DNA of 46,691 nucleotides. It comes from Chlorobiaceae bacterium. GTDB lineage: Bacteria > Bacteroidota > Chlorobiia > Chlorobiales > Chlorobiaceae. The notes beneath the pieces were generated by a model. That model saw nothing but the letters and a program-made list of their open reading frames with translations, had not been told where the DNA came from and made no database searches. Shown here piece after piece: positions 5,386-46,691 of this stretch. The DNA lies in contig JAAXWX010000012.1 of assembly GCA_013334755.1 (NCBI GenBank), positions 1-46,691 of the forward strand, written 5' to 3'. Numbering within the stretch: position 1 is the stretch's first letter; every line of letters starts with the position of its first letter. A program made the position numbers and the translations under genes.

Positions 5386-6775
5386 ACCGCAACGCTTCAT
5401 GATCAATCCGCGTCGTATCCGCCTCCTGAACGAGAGTCATGACGGCGATGGAGCGGTGATCTACTGGATGTCGCGCGACCAGAGAGTCCGCCATAACTGG
5501 GCACTGCTTTTTGCCCGCAGAAAAGCAGAACTCCTCCGGCAGCCTCTTGTCGTGCTCTTTACGCTTGCCCCCACTTTTCTCCAGGCTCCATTTCGCCATT
5601 ACGATTTCATGCTCAAGGGGTTACAGGCGGTTGAAGCTGATCTCAGAGCGCTGAACATTCCCTTTGTGCTCCTGCAGGGCAATCCGGAAACAGAACTCCC
5701 CCGCTTTTCAGAAAATATGAAGGCCGGATTGGTGGTTACCGATTTTTCGCCGCTGAACATTTCCAGAGAATGGAAAAAAAAGATTATATCGCACCTCACG
5801 GTTCCGCTCTATGAAGTTGATGCCCACAACATCATACCATGCTGGATCGCTTCCGGCAGACAGGAATATTCTGCCAGAACAATCCGACCGAAAATCAACG
5901 CCCTGCTCGGAGAGTTTCTTACCGAGTTTCCTGAGCTTGAACCACTTGCGTCACCCTCTGAACACCAGCCTGTCGATTGGAACGATGTCTGCCGGAAGCT
6001 GAAAGCAGACCCGGCCGTACCGCCTGTGGAATGGCTGAAACCCGGAGAAAAAGCTGGAGAAGCCTGCCTTGACAGCTTTCTGCGAGGCAGGCTTGCCTCT
6101 TATGCGGAACAGCGCAACGATCCCAATGCAGAGGCAACTTCACATCTCTCCCCCTATCTGCATTTCGGCCAGATCAGTGCCCAGTTTGTGGCCATAAAAA
6201 CAAAGAAAAGCAAGGCCCCGGAAGCCGGCAGAAACGCCTTCCTTGAAGAGCTGATTATACGGCGGGAGCTGGCAGAAAACTTTTGCTGCCATAACAAACA
6301 CTATGACTCGTATGAGGGCATACCGGAATGGGCCAGAGAGAGCCTGAAACAGCATGGCGGTGACAGACGGGAGTACCTCTACTCTGGCGAAGATTTTGCA
6401 GCAGCCAAAACACACGAAAGACTCTGGAATGCCGCGCAGCTTGAGCTGACAAAAACCGGGGTCATCCACGGCTACATGCGGATGTACTGGGCAAAAAAAA
6501 TTCTTGAGTGGAGCGAAACTCCTGAGCAGGCATTTGAGACCGCCATCGCCCTGAATGACCGCTACGCCCTTGACGGCAGGGATCCGAATGGTTATGCTGG
6601 CATTTCATGGTCAATCGGAGGGCTCCATGACCGACCCTGGTTTGACCGGCCGGTTTATGGCAAAATCCGCTACATGAATGCCTCTGGATGCGCCAGGAAG
6701 TTCGATGTCAACCGTTACATCACCCGCAATGAAGGTTGTTCGGAGCAGAAAAAGCAGCAAAATCTGTTCTCCTGA
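5378..6775 (+). CDS. phr: Class II deoxyribodipyrimidine photolyase
   Basis: Light-driven repair of cyclobutane pyrimidine dimers with FAD as cofactor. The N-terminal Rossmann domain (QRVRHNWALLFARRKAELL) would hold an antenna pigment. The C-terminal helical FAD domain carries class II signatures: HFGQISAQ, FLEELIIRRELAENFC, RLWNAAQLELTKTGVIHGYM, RMYWAKKILEWS and DGRDPNGYAGISWSIGG. The length (465 aa) is normal for class II. The TTG at 5378 gives a short overlap with the upstream amidotransferase; ATG at 5399 (MINPRRIRLLN) is an equally good start because class II enzymes often begin near the NxxR segment. The gene converges on rnr with only 38 bases between stops. Confidence 0.93.
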   Translation: MSEPQRFMINPRRIRLLNESHDGDGAVIYWMSRDQRVRHNWALLFARRKAELLRQPLVVLFTLAPTFLQAPFRHYDFMLKGLQAVEADLRALNIPFVLLQGNPETELPRFSENMKAGLVVTDFSPLNISREWKKKIISHLTVPLYEVDAHNIIPCWIASGRQEYSARTIRPKINALLGEFLTEFPELEPLASPSEHQPVDWNDVCRKLKADPAVPPVEWLKPGEKAGEACLDSFLRGRLASYAEQRNDPNAEATSHLSPYLHFGQISAQFVAIKTKKSKAPEAGRNAFLEELIIRRELAENFCCHNKHYDSYEGIPEWARESLKQHGGDRREYLYSGEDFAAAKTHERLWNAAQLELTKTGVIHGYMRMYWAKKILEWSETPEQAFETAIALNDRYALDGRDPNGYAGISWSIGGLHDRPWFDRPVYGKIRYMNASGCARKFDVNRYITRNEGCSEQKKQQNLFS

Positions 6776-38727: not shown

Positions 38728-38982
38728 ATGGCACATCAATCGTTGCAACCGATCGCCCATCTTCGTCAAAATCAGGATGGTTCATGGACAGAGCATGACT
38801 TGAAAGAACATCTGATGCAGGTTGCTGACAAAGCTGCCCGATTTGCCGAGGAATTTGGCAACGGTGACTGGGTTAAAACGGCCGGCCTGTTGCATGATCT
38901 TGGAAAATACAATCCTCAGTGGCAGGAATATATCCGCAAGAATAACGGAGATTATGACGAGGAGTGTAATGGGCAAGATTGA
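38728..38982 (+). CDS. cas3: Cas3 HD-nuclease N-terminal fragment, type I-C (84 aa)
   Basis: This frame encodes the first half of the HD nuclease domain of type I-C Cas3: LKEHLMQVADKAARFAEEFG with the first metal-binding His, and TAGLLHDLGKYNPQWQEYI with the His-Asp pair that names the domain. The frame ends at a TGA (38980-38982) just after NGDYDEE. The next conserved segments (KIDHSSAGA and ITGHHAGLPDW), which supply the other metal ligands, continue in the +1 frame. Alone, this peptide cannot form a complete nuclease. See the helicase part for the possible restart. Confidence 0.75.
   Translation: MAHQSLQPIAHLRQNQDGSWTEHDLKEHLMQVADKAARFAEEFGNGDWVKTAGLLHDLGKYNPQWQEYIRKNNGDYDEECNGQD
38958..38971 (+). 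promoter_or_regulatory. Internal ribosome-binding site and ATG within cas3
   Basis: GAGGAG followed four to five bases later by ATG lies exactly at the frame change of cas3. The ATG (38969-38971) opens the frame that holds the rest of the HD domain and the helicase, and it overlaps the end of the upstream frame by 14 bases. Such an overlap allows translational coupling. The GAGGAG codes for Glu-Glu in the upstream frame, so it could also be coincidence. Confidence 0.45.
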
Positions 38983-40966
38983 TCACTCTTCTGCTGGTGC
39001 GATTCATGCCGTACAGAAAAATGAATTCACTGGACGAATACTTGCATACCTTATTACTGGTCATCATGCCGGTTTACCGGACTGGGAATATGAACCGGGT
39101 GTAGGAGGAGCTCTTTCAGGAAGGCTTACCTCTTTTGAAAATCTGGAAAAAGCCTTGAAAGGTAACCCGCCTCATGATATTCTTGATGCATCATTGCCCT
39201 CTTCATCGCCATGCAATACCATATTCAAAGACAATGAAGCAGTGCATGTGTGGATAAGAATGCTCTATTCCTGTCTGGTTGATGCTGATTTTCTTGATAC
39301 TGAGTCGTTTATGAGCCCTGATAAGGCAGAACTTCGCGTCAATGACTGCTCGCTTGAAAAGCTCAAGATTGTATTTGACTCTTTTATGGAGGGAAAACAG
39401 AGCGAAGCTCTTCAGACACCTGTGAATCAGGCAAGAAAGACCATTCTTGACGATTGCAGAAATAAAGCAGAACAGGCGGCCGGCTTGTTTTCTCTTACCG
39501 TCCCGACCGGTGGCGGCAAAACCCTGTCATCAATGGCTTTTGCGCTTAACCATGCTATCCGGCATGGCAAAAAGCGGATTATCATTGCCATTCCCTATAC
39601 CAGTATTATCGAACAGACTGCTGATGTTTACCGGAAAGTGTTCGGCACTGATGCAGTACTTGAACATCACAGTAATTTTGATTCGGATAAAAACAATTCA
39701 AAAGCCAACCTTGCTGCAGACAACTGGGATGCTCCGATTATTGTGACAACAAATGTTCAATTGTTCGAGTCGCTTTTTGCTGCTAAAAGTTCTGCCTGCA
39801 GAAAACTGCATAACATCGTGAATTCAGTCATTGTGCTTGATGAAGCGCAAATGCTGCCCACAGAATATCTTCAACCGATAGTTTCAGTTCTGAAAGTATT
39901 GACGGAATACTTTAAAATATCTGTTGTGCTTTGCACAGCAACACAACCGGTATTGTCCGGCAAAATCGGCTCGGGGCAGAATATCCTGAAGGGATTCAAT
40001 GAAGGTACTGTTCGTGAGTTGATGACAGATCCTGACAAACTGTTTGAGATCTTCCAGCGTGTTACCATTCAAATGGTTGGCAATTCAGATGAACGTCAGG
40101 AGTGGCCAAATATTGCAGAAAAGCTCTGTGATAAGGAACAAGCTTTATGCATCGTCAATACGCGGAACGATTGCCGGGAATTACACTCCATAATGCCGGA
40201 AGGAACGGTTCATCTTTCAGCTCTGATGTGCCCTGAACACAGAAGTGAAGTTATTGCTAAAATTAAATCAAAGCTGAAAGAAAATATTCCTGTTCGTGTA
40301 ATCAGTACACAACTGCTCGAAGCAGGCGTTGATATTGATTTTCCTGTTGTTTTCAGGGCATTTACCGGGCTTGACAGTATTGCGCAGGCAGCCGGTCGAT
40401 GCAACCGTGAAGGGAAATTGGAAAAAGGCAAGGTTTTTGTTTTTAATCCCCCAAAGCCGCCGCCGACAGGAATGATGCTGAAAGCAGAGCAGGCCGGACA
40501 GGAAATGTTCCGCGTTTATCCCGAACTTGCCGCATCATTGATGCCTGAAGCCTTCAGACAATACTTCCATCTTTATTTCAACAGACTGAATGATTTTGAC
40601 AAAAAGCAGATCATGGATCTCCTTGCCGGGCCTGATGCCAGGCAGTTTAAGATTCAATTCCGTACAACTGCGCTTCGCTTCAAGCTCATTGATGATGCAC
40701 AGCAGCATGGTCTTGTTGTCCGATATCAATCCGACGCCATTGATAACAAAAAATTGATCGATCAATTACGTTTTGTCGGCCCAAGCAGAAGACTCATGAG
40801 ACAATTGCAACGTTTTTCTGTCAATGTCTATGACCGTGACCTGCAGGAAATGCGAAAAAATGGGATGATTGAAGATGTGAATGGTATCTGGGTGCAGACT
40901 GACAAGAATTTATATGACCCGATATTCGGTCTTGATGTCAAGGCCACACCAAACATGTACTGGTAA
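38969..40966 (+). CDS. cas3: Cas3 helicase with C-terminal half of HD domain, type I-C (665 aa)
   Basis: Superfamily 2 helicase of the interference step. It starts with MGKIDHSSAGAIHA and ITGHHAGLPDW, the second half of the HD nuclease site, then carries the helicase motifs: Walker A VPTGGGKTLSSMAF near residue 180, DEAQ in VIVLDEAQMLP, TATQPVLS, and motifs V/VI in VISTQLLEAGVDIDFPVVF and QAAGRCNREG. The open frame begins further upstream, at 38822, but those residues are out-of-frame shadow of the HD segment. Either the gene is frameshifted relative to an intact ancestor, or the helicase is made as a second chain from the ATG at 38969. cas5c follows after 20 bases. Confidence 0.85.
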   Translation: MGKIDHSSAGAIHAVQKNEFTGRILAYLITGHHAGLPDWEYEPGVGGALSGRLTSFENLEKALKGNPPHDILDASLPSSSPCNTIFKDNEAVHVWIRMLYSCLVDADFLDTESFMSPDKAELRVNDCSLEKLKIVFDSFMEGKQSEALQTPVNQARKTILDDCRNKAEQAAGLFSLTVPTGGGKTLSSMAFALNHAIRHGKKRIIIAIPYTSIIEQTADVYRKVFGTDAVLEHHSNFDSDKNNSKANLAADNWDAPIIVTTNVQLFESLFAAKSSACRKLHNIVNSVIVLDEAQMLPTEYLQPIVSVLKVLTEYFKISVVLCTATQPVLSGKIGSGQNILKGFNEGTVRELMTDPDKLFEIFQRVTIQMVGNSDERQEWPNIAEKLCDKEQALCIVNTRNDCRELHSIMPEGTVHLSALMCPEHRSEVIAKIKSKLKENIPVRVISTQLLEAGVDIDFPVVFRAFTGLDSIAQAAGRCNREGKLEKGKVFVFNPPKPPPTGMMLKAEQAGQEMFRVYPELAASLMPEAFRQYFHLYFNRLNDFDKKQIMDLLAGPDARQFKIQFRTTALRFKLIDDAQQHGLVVRYQSDAIDNKKLIDQLRFVGPSRRLMRQLQRFSVNVYDRDLQEMRKNGMIEDVNGIWVQTDKNLYDPIFGLDVKATPNMYW

Positions 40967-40986: not shown

Positions 40987-41700
40987 ATGGAATATTCCAA
41001 TAAAACATTCTGTCTTGAAGTCAAGGGCGATTATGCCTGTTTCACAAGACCGGAGATGAAGGTCGAGCGCGTCAGCTATGATGTAATTACTCCATCAGCA
41101 GCACGGGCTATCTTTGAAGCAATTTTCTGGAAACCAGCCATCCAATGGCATATCCGGAAAATTGAGGTTTTAAAACCAATAAAATGGGTTTCAGTTCGGC
41201 GTAACGAAGTTGGAACTACAGCCAGCGAACGAAGTAGTGGCGTTTTTATAGAAGATAATCGTCAACAACGAGCGGGACTTTTTCTGAAAGATGTGGCATA
41301 TCGACTTCATGCAGAGCTTGAATTTATTCCTCCTCCAGCAAGGCCAAAAGTTACTGGCCCGTTAAAGGAGACTTTGCTTGACAAAAATGAAAAGGACGAT
41401 TGGCAAAAAGATGAGAATCCAGGCAAATACAACGCCATGTTTGAACGCCGGGTCCGCAAGGGGCAATGTTTCAATCAACCCTATCTCGGTTGCCGTGAAT
41501 TCAGTTGTGATTTTCGGCTGATTGATGACATGAAAAATGAGCCAGCCCCCGTTGATGAGACCCGTGATCTTGGCTTCATGCTTTACGATCTCGACTTTGC
41601 AAAAGAACCTGACAATCCAGCACCAGCTTTTTTCAGGTCCCAGTTAAAAAATGGAGTTATTGAAATCCCTGATTGGGAAAGTGAGGAGGTAAAAAGATGA
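40987..41700 (+). CDS. cas5c: Cas5c (Cas5d) pre-crRNA endonuclease, type I-C (237 aa)
   Basis: In type I-C, which lacks Cas6, this Cas5 cuts the repeat hairpin to make crRNA and holds its 5' handle in Cascade. The N-terminal VKGDYACFTRPEMKVERVSYDVITPSAARAI is split here only by length limits: KGDYACFTRPEMKVE and YDVITPSAARAIFEAI are typical. Further conserved parts are RRNEVGTTA, QQRAGLFLKDV and the glycine-rich YLGCREFSCDF. A CAGGA site precedes the start. The stop overlaps the start of cas8c by four bases (ATGA). Confidence 0.95.
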   Translation: MEYSNKTFCLEVKGDYACFTRPEMKVERVSYDVITPSAARAIFEAIFWKPAIQWHIRKIEVLKPIKWVSVRRNEVGTTASERSSGVFIEDNRQQRAGLFLKDVAYRLHAELEFIPPPARPKVTGPLKETLLDKNEKDDWQKDENPGKYNAMFERRVRKGQCFNQPYLGCREFSCDFRLIDDMKNEPAPVDETRDLGFMLYDLDFAKEPDNPAPAFFRSQLKNGVIEIPDWESEEVKR

Positions 41701-43430
41701 TTCTACAAGCGTTATACGACTATTACCAACGCAAGGCGGCTGCTCCGGACAGTAACATTGCCCCAGAAGGATTTGAGTGGAAAGAGATTCCTTTTGTGAT
41801 TGTCATAGACAAAGAGGGCAATTTCGTTGCTCTTGAAGATACTCGTGAAGGTGATGGAAAGAAAAAAAGGGCAAAACCCTTTTTAGTGCCTGCTGCCGAG
41901 AAAAAAACAGTTGGAATTAAAGCAAACCTACTGTGGGACAATGTTGAATATGCACTGGGTGCCAATCCCCGTGACCGTAAGGACATTGATGCTCGAAAGA
42001 ATGCATTTCTTAACAGATTACACGAAACATTTTCAGACGAGACATCAGCGTCATTTGTTGCCCCATTGATTGAGTTCCTTCAGCACAACCCCATGGAACA
42101 GATTAACTCCAAAGAGTCAGAAAATGAGCTTTTGAAAGAATTACTTGAAAATAATGCCAATGTCACCTTCAGGGTTTTGGGATCACAGAATACAAACCTG
42201 TGTGAGACTATGAAACCCTATATCCTTAAGAATCAAGAATCTGATGAAGGTGAAATTTGCCTTGTGTCAGGGAACCGAGAACCAATTGCACGTCTTAATG
42301 TTTCCATAAAGGGAGTCCGTGGTGCTCAATCGTCAGGAGCTGCTTTGGTATCGTTTAATTTGAAAGCTTTTGAGTCTTATGGGAAAAGCCAGAATTTCAA
42401 TGCGCCGATGGGTGAGCCTGCTGCTTTTGCTTATACAACAGTGTTGAATCTGCTGCTTGGCAAGGACTCTAAAAACAAAGTTCAGGCTGGCGATGCAACG
42501 ACCGTCTTTTGGGCAAAAAAGCCAACAGTTTTTGAAGATATTTTCCCCTCTTTTTTTGCTTTTCCGCCAAAGGATGATCCTGATACTGACGTTCGGGCTG
42601 TCAAAGCACTTTACGATGGGGTGTTTACAGGACACACTGGCAGTGATTCTCTAACAAGATTTTATGTTCTTGGGCTTGCTCCTAATGCTGCACGTCTTTC
42701 CGTTAGATTCTGGCATGAGGGGGTAGTTCAAGACTTTGCCGAAAAAATCCGGCAGCATTTTGATGACCTTAACATAATTCGTTCGCCAAAGGATAATGGG
42801 CGTTACGCTTTGTTCTGGATTCTTTCAGCTATGGCTTTGGAAAACAAGGTTGACAATGTTCCGCCGAATCTTTCTGGTCAAATTGTTCAGGCAGTTCTGA
42901 CAGGTTCGCTCTATCCGGCAACAATGCTTCAGCAAACCATTCGTCGAGTCCGGGCTACGAGGGATGTTACCAGAATACAGGCAGGTATCCTGAAGGCTTA
43001 TCTCAATCGATATTACCGAATTCACTCAACCAAAGAAAAGGAGATCACTGTGGCTCTTGATACTGCCAATAATAATCCGGGTTATCGCCTTGGACGTCTT
43101 TTTGCTGTACTTGAAAAAATTCAGGAAGAGGCAAATCCCGGTTTAAATGCAACGATTCGTGACCGGTTCTATGGTGCGGCATCTTCATCACCGGTAACAG
43201 TTTTTCCCCAGTTACTGAAGCTTAAAAACCATCATCTTGCCAAGCTTGAAAATGTTGGCAGAAAAATCAACTTTGAGCGAATGCTGACTGAAATTTTTGA
43301 CGGCATTGGTTCTGAAATGCCACCTCATCTGTCTATGGAAGATCAGTCCCGTTTTGCCATTGGCTATTACCACCAGAGGCAGGCATTATTTTCGAGTTCT
43401 TCAAACAATGAAAACAAAAAAGAGGGGTGA
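41697..43430 (+). CDS. cas8c: Cas8c (Csd1), large Cascade subunit, type I-C (577 aa)
   Basis: Large subunit that recognises the PAM and recruits Cas3; the C-terminal part of cas8c is also translated internally as Cas11 in known type I-C systems. Family signatures are the start [23 protein letters not shown]-like central strand ([15 protein letters not shown]), [17 protein letters not shown] and the C-terminal SYYHQRQ-like end ([12 protein letters not shown]). AGGAGG lies seven bases before the ATG. The stop overlaps the GTG alternative start of cas7. An internal start for Cas11 was not resolved by eye. Confidence 0.95.
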
Positions 43431-43435
43431 ACATC

Positions 43436-44335
43436 ATGATTAATCTTGAAAAACGGTACGACTTTGTCTTGTTGTTTGATGTAAAAGATGGGAACCCCAA
43501 TGGCGACCCTGACGCAGGAAATCTTCCGCGCATGGATGCAGAAACAGGTATGGGGCTGGTAACCGATGTTTGCTTGAAACGAAAAGTCCGGAATTATGTT
43601 CAGCTTTCTGGGCAAGACATATTTATTAAAGAAAAAGGTGTTCTTAACGTCTTGATAGATCAAGCATACGACGACCTGCATATTGATCTGTCCAAGGAGC
43701 CATCAGATCCAAAAGATGGAAAAAAAAGAAATAAGGATGGTACCGCTCAAGGTAGTGAAGTCGATAAAGGCCGTACGCAAATGTGTAAACAGTATTATGA
43801 CATTAGGACATTTGGTGCTGTCATGTCAACGGGTGCAAACGCAGGCCAGGTTCGTGGTCCTGTGCAATTAACGTTTGCTCGTTCTATTGAACCGATTGTT
43901 GCCTTGGAACACAGCATTACCAGAATGGCCGTTGCAACGGAAGCAGAAGCTGAAAAACAAAGTGGCGATAACCGGACAATGGGCCGAAAATACACTGTGC
44001 CTTATGGCCTTTATCGGGCACATGGCTTTGTTTCAGCTCATCTCGCAAATCAGACTGGTTTTTCAGAAGAGGATCTCAACCTCTTCTGGGACTCACTGCT
44101 GAACATGTTCGAACATGACCGTTCGGCAGCAAGGGGAATGATGGCAACAAGGGGGTTGTATGTCTTTGAGCACAGCACAGCACTTGGCAATGCTCCAGCC
44201 TACTCCTTGTTTGATCGAATTAGTGTGGAACGGAAAAATGCTCTGTCTGGCCCTGCTCGTTCATTTGAAGACTATGTCGTAAATGTGAATGACAATGATC
44301 TTGGTGAAGTGAATTTGATTAGAAAAATTGGCTGA
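43436..44335 (+). CDS. cas7c: Cas7c (Csd2), Cascade backbone subunit, type I-C (299 aa)
   Basis: Forms the helical backbone that holds the crRNA spacer. The signature [15 protein letters not shown] lies near residue 20. Other conserved parts are [38 protein letters not shown] and [20 protein letters not shown] at 43436 is chosen because it is preceded by GAGGGG at good distance; a GTG at 43427 would overlap cas8c and add three residues. The stop overlaps the TTG start of cas4 by eight bases. Confidence 0.95.
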
Positions 44336-44999
44336 CAAAAATATCACACAAGCCCTGTACCCGGAATCCGATTTCGTGATGCTGTCGGCATTGCAGCATT
44401 ATGTCTATTGCCCCCGGCAGTGTGCGCTGATCCATCTGGAGCAGATATGGAGTGAGAACGTTTACACTGCCGAGGGGCGGGAGATGCATGATCGGGTAGA
44501 TAATGGTGAAACATCTTACCGAACCGGTGTTCGGGTAACGAGGAGCACTGCATTGCGCAGCGCTTTGCTTGGTGTTTCCGGTGTGGCTGATGTGGTTGAG
44601 TGGCACAAGCAGAATAGTCATGAAGAACCGTTTCCGGTTGAGTATAAACGGGGCAAACCGAAAAAACATGATGCCGACAAAATCCAGCTTTGTGCCCAGG
44701 CTATGTGCCTTGAGGAGATGCTGGGGATTCAAATTCCGGCAGGAGCCTTGTTTTACGGGCAAACAAAGCATCGGCTTGATGTTGATTTCGATGATGCTTT
44801 ACGAGAAAAAACTGTTCTTGCAGCAGAAGGGGTACATGATCTTTTTCGCAATGGAGTAACACCTCCACCTGAGCCAGGGCCGAAATGCAAGCTCTGCTCT
44901 TTGAAGGAGGAGTGCCTGCCAGAATTGATTGTTCAGGGCAGATCGGCAAACGTATACCTTCAAAAATTGCTTCAGACACTCTCGAAGGAGGAGATGTGA
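44328..44999 (+). CDS. cas4: Cas4 RecB-like exonuclease with Fe-S cluster (223 aa)
   Basis: Trims and selects new spacers with Cas1-Cas2. The nuclease core has [19 protein letters not shown] with catalytic Glu and Lys, and the [12 protein letters not shown] helix. The four cluster cysteines are in YCPRQC near residue 30 and [10 protein letters not shown] near residue 195. The start is TTG at 44328, in overlap with cas7. GGAGGAG near its end is the ribosome-binding site for cas1. Confidence 0.94.
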
Positions 45000-46027
45000 A
45001 AAAATATCTCAATACCCTTTTTGTCACTACTCAGGGTGCCTATCTCTCAAAAGAGGGTGAGTGTGCCGTTATCAAAATAGAGAAAGAGGTAAAAACACGC
45101 ATCCCGCTTCACATGCTTGACGGCATTATCTGTTTTGGATCGGTTACCTGCAGCCCGTTTTTGCTTGGACATTGTGCTGAAAGCGGTGTGACGGTAACGT
45201 TTTTAAGCCAGTACGGAAAATATCTTTGTCAGGTTCAGGGGGCAACACGGGGTAACATTCTGTTGCGGAGGGCGCAGTACCGTATGGCTGACAATAACCT
45301 CCAGACCGCTCGCCTTGCACGATCATTTGTTATCGGAAAAATCGGTAATGCCCGCATCACACTTGCCCGAACAGTAAGGGATCATCCTGAAAAAGTGAAC
45401 TCTGTCAAGCTGAAAAATGCCCAGCATATCCTTGCCGGCTGCATAAAGCGCTTGCAGGATGAAACCGATCAGGAACGTATCAGGGGAATTGAGGGAGAAG
45501 CTGCTAAAATTTATTTCGATGTCTTCGATGAATGCATTACCTCAACTGATCCATTGTTCCGCTTTACCGGTCGCAACCGCCGCCCGCCGCTTGACCGGAT
45601 AAACTGTCTGCTCTCCTTTCTCTATACACTGCTGACACACGATATCCGCTCTGCACTTGAATCATGCGGTCTTGATCCTGCCGCAGGGTTTTTACATAAA
45701 GACCGACCGGGACGCCCAAGTCTTGCCCTTGACATGATCGAAGAATTCCGTTCGTATATTGCGGACAGATTAGCACTATCGCTGATCAATCGAGGCCAGA
45801 TTCAATCGAAAGATTTTACCATTTCAGAAACAGGCGCAGTGCTCCTGAAGGATGATGCTCGTAAAACGCTTCTAACCGCTTATCAGAATCGAAAGCAGGA
45901 AGAAATAGAGCATCCGTTTGTAAAAGAAAAAATGGCCATCGGTCTACTGTGGCATATGCAGGCCATGCTGCTTGCCCGCCATATCCGGGGCGATATCGAC
46001 ATGTACCCGCCATTTGTCTGGAGATAA
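44996..46027 (+). CDS. cas1: Cas1 integrase, type I-C (343 aa)
   Basis: Integrates new spacers at the leader end of the array. The catalytic residues are a Glu in GIEGEAAKIYF, a His in AAGFLHKDRPGR and an acidic residue in LALDMIEEFR. The start is the GTG at 44996, which overlaps the cas4 stop (GTGA) and follows GGAGGAG; the open frame continues upstream to 44885, but that part only shadows cas4. The length of 343 residues is that of Cas1 in subtype I-C. Confidence 0.96.
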   Translation: MKKYLNTLFVTTQGAYLSKEGECAVIKIEKEVKTRIPLHMLDGIICFGSVTCSPFLLGHCAESGVTVTFLSQYGKYLCQVQGATRGNILLRRAQYRMADNNLQTARLARSFVIGKIGNARITLARTVRDHPEKVNSVKLKNAQHILAGCIKRLQDETDQERIRGIEGEAAKIYFDVFDECITSTDPLFRFTGRNRRPPLDRINCLLSFLYTLLTHDIRSALESCGLDPAAGFLHKDRPGRPSLALDMIEEFRSYIADRLALSLINRGQIQSKDFTISETGAVLLKDDARKTLLTAYQNRKQEEIEHPFVKEKMAIGLLWHMQAMLLARHIRGDIDMYPPFVWR

Positions 46028-46032
46028 CGATA

Positions 46033-46323
46033 ATGCTTGTTCTGGTCACTTATGATGTTAACACCGAAACTCCTGCCGGAAAAAGGAGATTGCGTCGCAT
46101 AGCCAAAACCTGCCAGAACTATGGGCAACGAGTCCAGTTTTCTGTGTTTGAGTGTAATGTGGATCCTGCACAATGGACAAAATTACGAGGAAAGCTGGTG
46201 CATGAAATGGATCATAAACATGACAGTTTACGTTTTTATTTCCTTGGATCAAGCTGGCAGGATCGAATTGAACACGAAGGAGCCAAAGAACCACGAGATC
46301 TTGAAGGACCGCTGATTTTATAG
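46033..46323 (+). CDS. cas2: Cas2, type I-C (96 aa)
   Basis: Small ferredoxin-fold partner of Cas1. MLVLVTYDVNTETPAGKRRL has the conserved Asp after the first strand, RVQFSVFECNVDPAQW is the second signature. It begins five bases after the cas1 stop and ends with DLEGPLIL. The length is normal. Confidence 0.96.
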   Translation: MLVLVTYDVNTETPAGKRRLRRIAKTCQNYGQRVQFSVFECNVDPAQWTKLRGKLVHEMDHKHDSLRFYFLGSSWQDRIEHEGAKEPRDLEGPLIL

Positions 46324-46499: not shown

Positions 46500-46691
46500 G
46501 TCGCGCCCCCCGCGGGCGCGTGGATTGAAACGACTGTAATGCCGTCGCCTAAAATCTTTTTTTCTGTCGCGCCCCCCGCGGGCGCGTGGATTGAAACCGA
46601 AGCTCACCCTCGAACACCGGCCCTGCGTTGAGTCGCGCCCCCCGCGGGCGCGTGGATTGAAACTGACAGGGATAACGTTCCTGCTGTTTTT
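46500..46691 (+). CRISPR. Type I-C CRISPR array, leader end (3 repeats visible)
   Basis: Three identical 32-base repeats at 46500-46531, 46566-46597 and 46632-46663, starting GTCGCGCCCCCCGCGGGCGC and ending GTGGATTGAAAC. The repeat forms a seven-pair hairpin (CGCGCCC with GGGCGCG), the site cut by Cas5c. The two complete spacers are 34 bases each (46532-46565 and 46598-46631); a third is cut by the window end. The sequence belongs to the common I-C repeat class, consistent with the cas genes. The array is transcribed on the plus strand and continues past the window. Confidence 0.98.

Follow-up and report, generated by a model that had tools for sequence, protein, structure and literature searches.

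Chlorobiaceae of one lineage carry a type I-C cas3 gene that is cut inside its HD nuclease domain into two overlapping reading frames, and the evidence set out below makes it likely that this gene yields a two-chain Cas3 by coupled internal initiation, the two chains rebuilding one HD nuclease site. The gene was analysed in a window of 46,691 nucleotides from Chlorobiaceae bacterium GCA_013334755.1 (contig JAAXWX010000012.1, positions 1 to 46,691, forward strand). The original prediction had placed the first HD motifs in 38728-38982 and the remaining HD motifs together with the helicase in the +1 frame, and had read GAGGAG-TGTA-ATG with a 14-base overlap at the junction. Both descriptions are confirmed, the first by the open reading frames and by the matches to TIGR01596 (cas3_HD, 178 positions), and the second by the positions of the following features.

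38728-38982, + strand: predicted small chain of 84 aa, the N-terminal half of the Cas3 HD domain, matching TIGR01596 positions 1-62, with ligands H11, H28, H56 and D57; its stop is the TGA at 38980-38982.
38959-38964, + strand: Shine-Dalgarno-like GAGGAG, 4 nt upstream of the internal ATG, with its GAGG core at -10 to -7.
38969-38971, + strand: internal ATG, the putative start codon of the large chain, invariant in 15/15 split loci and found in two further loci with a different, complete Cas3 in frame.
38969-38982, + strand: overlap of 14 nt, read in both frames.
38969-40966, + strand: predicted large chain of 665 aa, comprising the HD remainder (DHS, GHH and SCLVDADFLD motifs), a RecA-like helicase and a C-terminal domain, with ligands H32 and H33; it is in the +1 frame relative to the small ORF, and its stop ends at 40966.

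Since the small ORF covers positions 1-62 of TIGR01596 and the large ORF positions 64-177, a single HD domain is cut at one point. The cut runs through the domain between HDxGK and DHS, and not between the HD domain and the helicase. TIGR01587 (cas3_core) scores above its cut-off, and the Cas3 ligand set and the helicase are complete when the two chains are taken jointly.

The split gene belongs to a type I-C operon with the order cas3, cas5c, cas8c, cas7c, cas4, cas1c, cas2 and CRISPR array, in which the six family models named below all score above their cut-offs.

40987-41700, + strand: cas5c, TIGR01876.
41697-43430, + strand: cas8c (csd1), TIGR01863.
43427-44335, + strand: cas7c (csd2), TIGR02589.
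44328-44999, + strand: cas4, TIGR00372.
44996-46027, + strand: cas1c, TIGR03640; the GTG start at 44996 is inferred, the match running from residue 40 of the ORF 44885-46027.
46033-46323, + strand: cas2, TIGR01573.
46500-46666, + strand: start of the CRISPR array, three repeats GTCGCGCCCCCCGCGGGCGCGTGGATTGAAAC with a period of 66; the contig end cuts the array.

All the remaining cas genes of the window have open frames, in agreement with the earlier view that they are intact. In the sampled split loci of sufficient length the other cas genes are likewise open, and repeat arrays are present.

A search for the same break in related strains, which the original prediction had proposed, found it in 16 Chlorobiaceae genomes of two genera, as 15 distinct sequences and down to ~67% identity. 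Single-contig genomes with the split are G076, G080 (2,154,946 bp) and G083 (2,364,842 bp), and the junctions of G024 and G083 are identical. In the search of relatives every close homologue showed the two-frame arrangement. Among 86 genomes of the family, 26 gave a match at a threshold of E<=1e-20, namely 16 with the split, 2 with an exchanged module and 8 with a more distant Cas3 in one open frame of ~815-848 aa; a frame-restored copy of the split lineage was found in none of the 86, the split being present in 16/16 of that lineage. The best 80 of 361 candidates in a scan of GTDB contigs comprised 7 named Chlorobiaceae loci, which were all split (7/7), and 73 loci of other groups, which were all one-frame (73/73) at ~48-54% identity. 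In a wider search of the phylum, the relatives examined other than L181 have a one-frame Cas3. Furthermore, the small-ORF region (252 nt) contains zero indels across the 15 distinct loci, all with the same break and frame change. On the Cas3 tree the split genes lie on one side of a branch with an SH-aLRT of 99, adjoining a one-frame gene of the Spirochaetales. As these genes form one clade, the split appears to have arisen once in the sampled set and to have been kept thereafter, and the 15 split loci do not represent 15 independent events. The split predates the divergence of the sampled type I-C lineage of the Chlorobiaceae and has been stable since.

Judged from their substitution patterns, both pieces are under equal purifying selection. 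With each piece read in its own frame, pairwise comparisons give a median dN/dS of 0.103 (small piece) and 0.101 (large piece); many distant pairs are synonymously saturated, and the closest pairs (large-chain dS 0.2-0.9) lead to the same conclusion. Read in the other two frames, the small-ORF region gives a dN/dS of 1.4-1.5, and third-codon-position diversity peaks in the small-ORF frame before the junction and in the large-ORF frame after it. The metal ligands of NlaCas3 are H8, H25, H52, D53, H118 and H119 (PMC11417383). The small-chain residues H11, H28, H56 and D57 map to H8, H25, H52 and D53 of that enzyme (PMC11417383), and all six ligand equivalents, four in the small chain and two in the large chain, are invariant in 15/15 split loci.

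These data bear on the reading of cas3 as a pseudogene, or as a sequencing or assembly error in the window genome. Such an explanation would fit with the single chain of type I-C Cas3 elsewhere, and with a loop whose shortening is not a multiple of three bases. Against it, the same break occurs in 16 separately assembled genomes, single-contig ones included, a conservation that excludes chance and assembly error, and both halves are under strong purifying selection. The relaxed selection and the lineage-specific lesions of a pseudogene were not observed, dN/dS being ~0.10, the break being shared and the small ORF being otherwise free of indels. We therefore regard this explanation as refuted for practical purposes, its probability being close to nil. 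The dead cas3 in an interference-poor locus, which was one option of the original prediction, falls with it, given the 16 genomes, the median dN/dS of ~0.10 in both fragments and the invariant HD ligands. Because selection has preserved the split in many species, the split Cas3 gives the impression of a functional enzyme in two pieces and not of a broken gene, and lost interference should not be read from a disrupted frame in a cas gene unless relatives are compared.

The break itself has a probable source in a small deletion. One-frame relatives have 26-33 codons (mode 29) from HDxGK to HS, while the split genes that were tested have 76 nt (25.3 codons), which bears out the earlier impression of a segment shorter than usual. 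In addition, an AH[IL]E-like element is present in 70/73 one-frame loops (from the best 80 of 361 GTDB candidates) and in 0/15 split loci. A net loss of ~11 nt from an ancestral loop of 29 codons, which we infer to be the probable origin of the break, would account for both the short spacing and the missing element. The small deletion that had been offered as one possible cause of a dead cas3 is in this way retained as a probable event (~11 nt net), whereas the death of the gene is not, both halves being under purifying selection.

The junction carries conserved signals for initiation. GAGG at -10 to -7 is found in 14/15 split loci even though the residues encoded there vary (EE, ED, EV), L118 being the locus without the core; in L112 and L114 a Glu-to-Val change still leaves GAGGT upstream of the ATG. 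The Glu codon under the Shine-Dalgarno element is GAG in 11/12 sequences, a level that 0/13 other invariant-Glu columns reach. In the small frame the T of the ATG occupies a wobble position that is free to vary, yet it is T in every case; of 37 other Asp/Asn columns, 3 are T throughout. Shine-Dalgarno statistics were taken from parts of the window's genome and parts of G080. In the window genome, 5-mer sites precede just 4% of internal ATGs in the +1 frame and 7% of gene starts, and the element at the junction is therefore not a background feature; 4-mer sites precede 25% of gene starts versus 13% of controls, indicating a modest use of such sites.

A conserved frame change followed by a zero-frame stop just downstream and preceded by a Shine-Dalgarno-like element could also point to a programmed frameshift (+1 or -2) in the overlap, giving a full-length fused Cas3 for which the small ORF is merely the zero-frame entry. 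In favour of this, the loop of the stitched product is of near-normal length and its HD domain models well, and a stable hairpin exceeds the synonymous expectation in some Chlorobium junctions (4/15 at p<0.01). This hairpin, which pairs the Shine-Dalgarno element and ATG with the DHS codons, is in excess in L002, L005, L010 and L115 (p 0.001-0.009) and weakly in L113; the excess is absent in the window (p 0.49) and in the g19 group, and indeed in most loci, and a conserved frameshift stimulator or hairpin masking the Shine-Dalgarno element was consequently rejected. Across the 15 loci neither a conserved slippery site nor a general hairpin was found, the sole plausible slip, GGG-C/T, becoming GAG-T in L115. 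The position of the zero-frame stop varies (TGA at +11 or TAA at +5), and in L112 and L114 a +1-frame stop one codon upstream of the ATG would confine the shift to three codons. A shift would require neither the invariant ATG nor the wobble constraint on the Shine-Dalgarno element, and the complete Cas3 genes grafted at this ATG, described below, can do without one. Given conserved start signals and a slip site that varies, frameshifting, which had been put forward as one way to join the frames, is disfavoured and in our view unlikely, although some low level of shifting may occur.

Two genomes of the family, G106 and G090, provide what amounts to a natural graft at this junction. Their adaptation genes are close to those of the window (cas1 97% and 91% identical), while cas3 (41-42%), cas5 (42-44%), cas8 (28-29%) and cas7 (58%) have been swapped for another type I-C-like set. 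The small ORF is retained and is followed by the same Shine-Dalgarno element and ATG and by MGKID(H/Y)SSAGAL, in frame into a complete foreign Cas3 that has an entire HD domain of its own. Neither genome has an ATG, GTG or TTG between the internal ATG and the first catalytic His of the foreign Cas3. These sequences are most simply read as showing the internal ATG to be the working start of the gene downstream.

The orphan small ORFs of these two genomes also bear on whether the nuclease is rebuilt at all. It is conceivable that the large chain acts as a helicase alone, with the small ORF retained because it serves as a translational leader or does something else, and the persistence of the small ORF upstream of a complete foreign Cas3 speaks for this and counts against the two-chain reading. 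However, none of the HD ligands of either chain varies in the partnered loci (15/15 invariant), and the small chain has a dN/dS of ~0.10; a mere leader would not need the HD ligand residues. In addition, the unpaired small chain loses H11 in 1/2 cases: in G106, H11 is replaced by Q and the relic DHS by DYS, while G090 keeps both. The losses in G106 are what one would predict if the split enzyme relies on these residues. Compared with their nearest partnered relatives, the orphans of G106 and G090 show dN and dS of 0.041/0.351 and 0.035/0.316, which suggests that they are still constrained, though most of this divergence may predate the exchange; their open frames could mean a recent exchange or another role. 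Loss of the nuclease with retention of the helicase is, on balance, more doubtful still than frameshifting.

Two chains that rebuild the HD site, an option already present in the original prediction, are thus best supported by selection in each frame, invariant ligands and conserved start signals. In the mechanism that we propose, one mRNA would give two polypeptides, one of 84 aa with HD motifs 1-2 and one of 665 aa that carries the helicase and C-terminal domain in addition to the HD remainder. Translation of the large chain would begin at the internal Shine-Dalgarno element and ATG within the end of the small ORF, via translational coupling or reinitiation. The chains would then pair via the HD helical bundle, so that the two-metal site is rebuilt from H11, H28, H56 and D57 of the small chain together with H32 and H33 of the large chain, and the complex would behave as an ordinary Cas3. 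On this proposal both polypeptides would be present in the cell and would assemble, and the complex would have nuclease and interference activity.

An AlphaFold model of the HD domain was built from an artificially stitched single chain, with a four-letter word at the overlap used for modelling only. It reached a pLDDT of 88 and a pTM of 0.84, with the type I-C Cas3 structures 8zns and 8g9u as best PDB matches. Only residues 77-81 fall below 50; they lie at the split, in a loop that connects helices 63-71 and 88-97. The modelled loop is probably flexible, and a chain break should be tolerated there as it falls in a low-confidence loop between two helices. An 'HD gate loop' has been described for NlaCas3, to which this loop may correspond. 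Modelled alone, the small chain is poor (pLDDT 57, six sequences).

In domain order, HD ligands and helicase motifs the split Cas3 resembles the one-chain type I-C Cas3 of Neisseria lactamica (8g9u, 8zns; PMC11417383), and it is ~50% identical to one-frame type I-C relatives. It differs from the one-chain enzyme in that the chain is cut inside the HD domain, with a shorter loop that lacks the AH[IL]E-like element; the single-chain habit of type I-C Cas3 does not hold in this lineage.

In type I-A and some other subtypes, Cas3'' (HD nuclease) and Cas3' (helicase) are two polypeptides from neighbouring genes. The present arrangement is alike in deriving the Cas3 functions from two polypeptides, but the classical cut leaves the HD domain whole and separates it from the helicase, whereas here it passes through the HD active site. 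The Cas3''/Cas3' division was rejected for this gene, the small ORF holding only positions 1-62 of the 178 of TIGR01596, with 64-177 in the large ORF. Nevertheless, the small ORF scores 55.5 bits against this model, above the NCBIfam Cas3'' cut-off of 43.45, so that automated annotation would misleadingly call half an HD domain a complete Cas3'' nuclease. Under automated labels the split would go unnoticed, passing for a frameshifted gene or a Cas3''/Cas3' pair. A cas3 on Rhizobium sp. Q54 plasmid 7 (LR606150; L137) is annotated as Cas3'' plus Cas3. It was considered as a second split and rejected, since its frame break falls at the DHS motif itself, lacks start signals and is a single unshared case; it is possibly a lesion or a sequence error.

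According to work cited in PMC7684278, an internal ribosome-binding site within cas8c gives rise to the Cas11c of type I-C systems. The two cases share a second protein made by internal initiation in a type I-C effector gene; Cas11c repeats the C-terminal part of Cas8c, whereas here the second piece is read in a different frame and the one domain is complete only with both pieces. A literature search of open-licence papers found no description of a split Cas3 HD domain or of this locus. If confirmed, the locus would represent a Cas3 catalytic metal site spread over two polypeptides, an arrangement for which we found no report, and would offer a natural two-part Cas3 for studies of nuclease control and for tool design. 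One may further speculate, at long odds, that the split serves as a control in which the nuclease site forms only once the large chain, engaged on its target, has been joined by the small chain. As part of this same doubtful idea, HD-site assembly might act as a switch that limits stray cutting or aids primed adaptation; were it true, the enzyme would be a natural split CRISPR nuclease.

Individual loci show further variation. The split cas3 of L119 (G084), a genome of the window's genus, groups with the other genus, which suggests horizontal transfer. In L228 (G009:C13) the large chain of a split cas3 stops at codon 398 (TGA) near the contig end, as either a decayed copy or a contig-end artefact. 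Compared with window positions 40987-46323, the Chlorobium loci L217-L226 have cas4-cas1-cas2 genes ~71-97% identical to those of the window, and their interference genes are replaced wholesale by quite different sets, an apparent sign of repeated module exchange at one site. In L225 (G034), on the reverse strand near 6154-6210, the first ~27 codons of the small chain persist as a relic upstream of a different Cas3.
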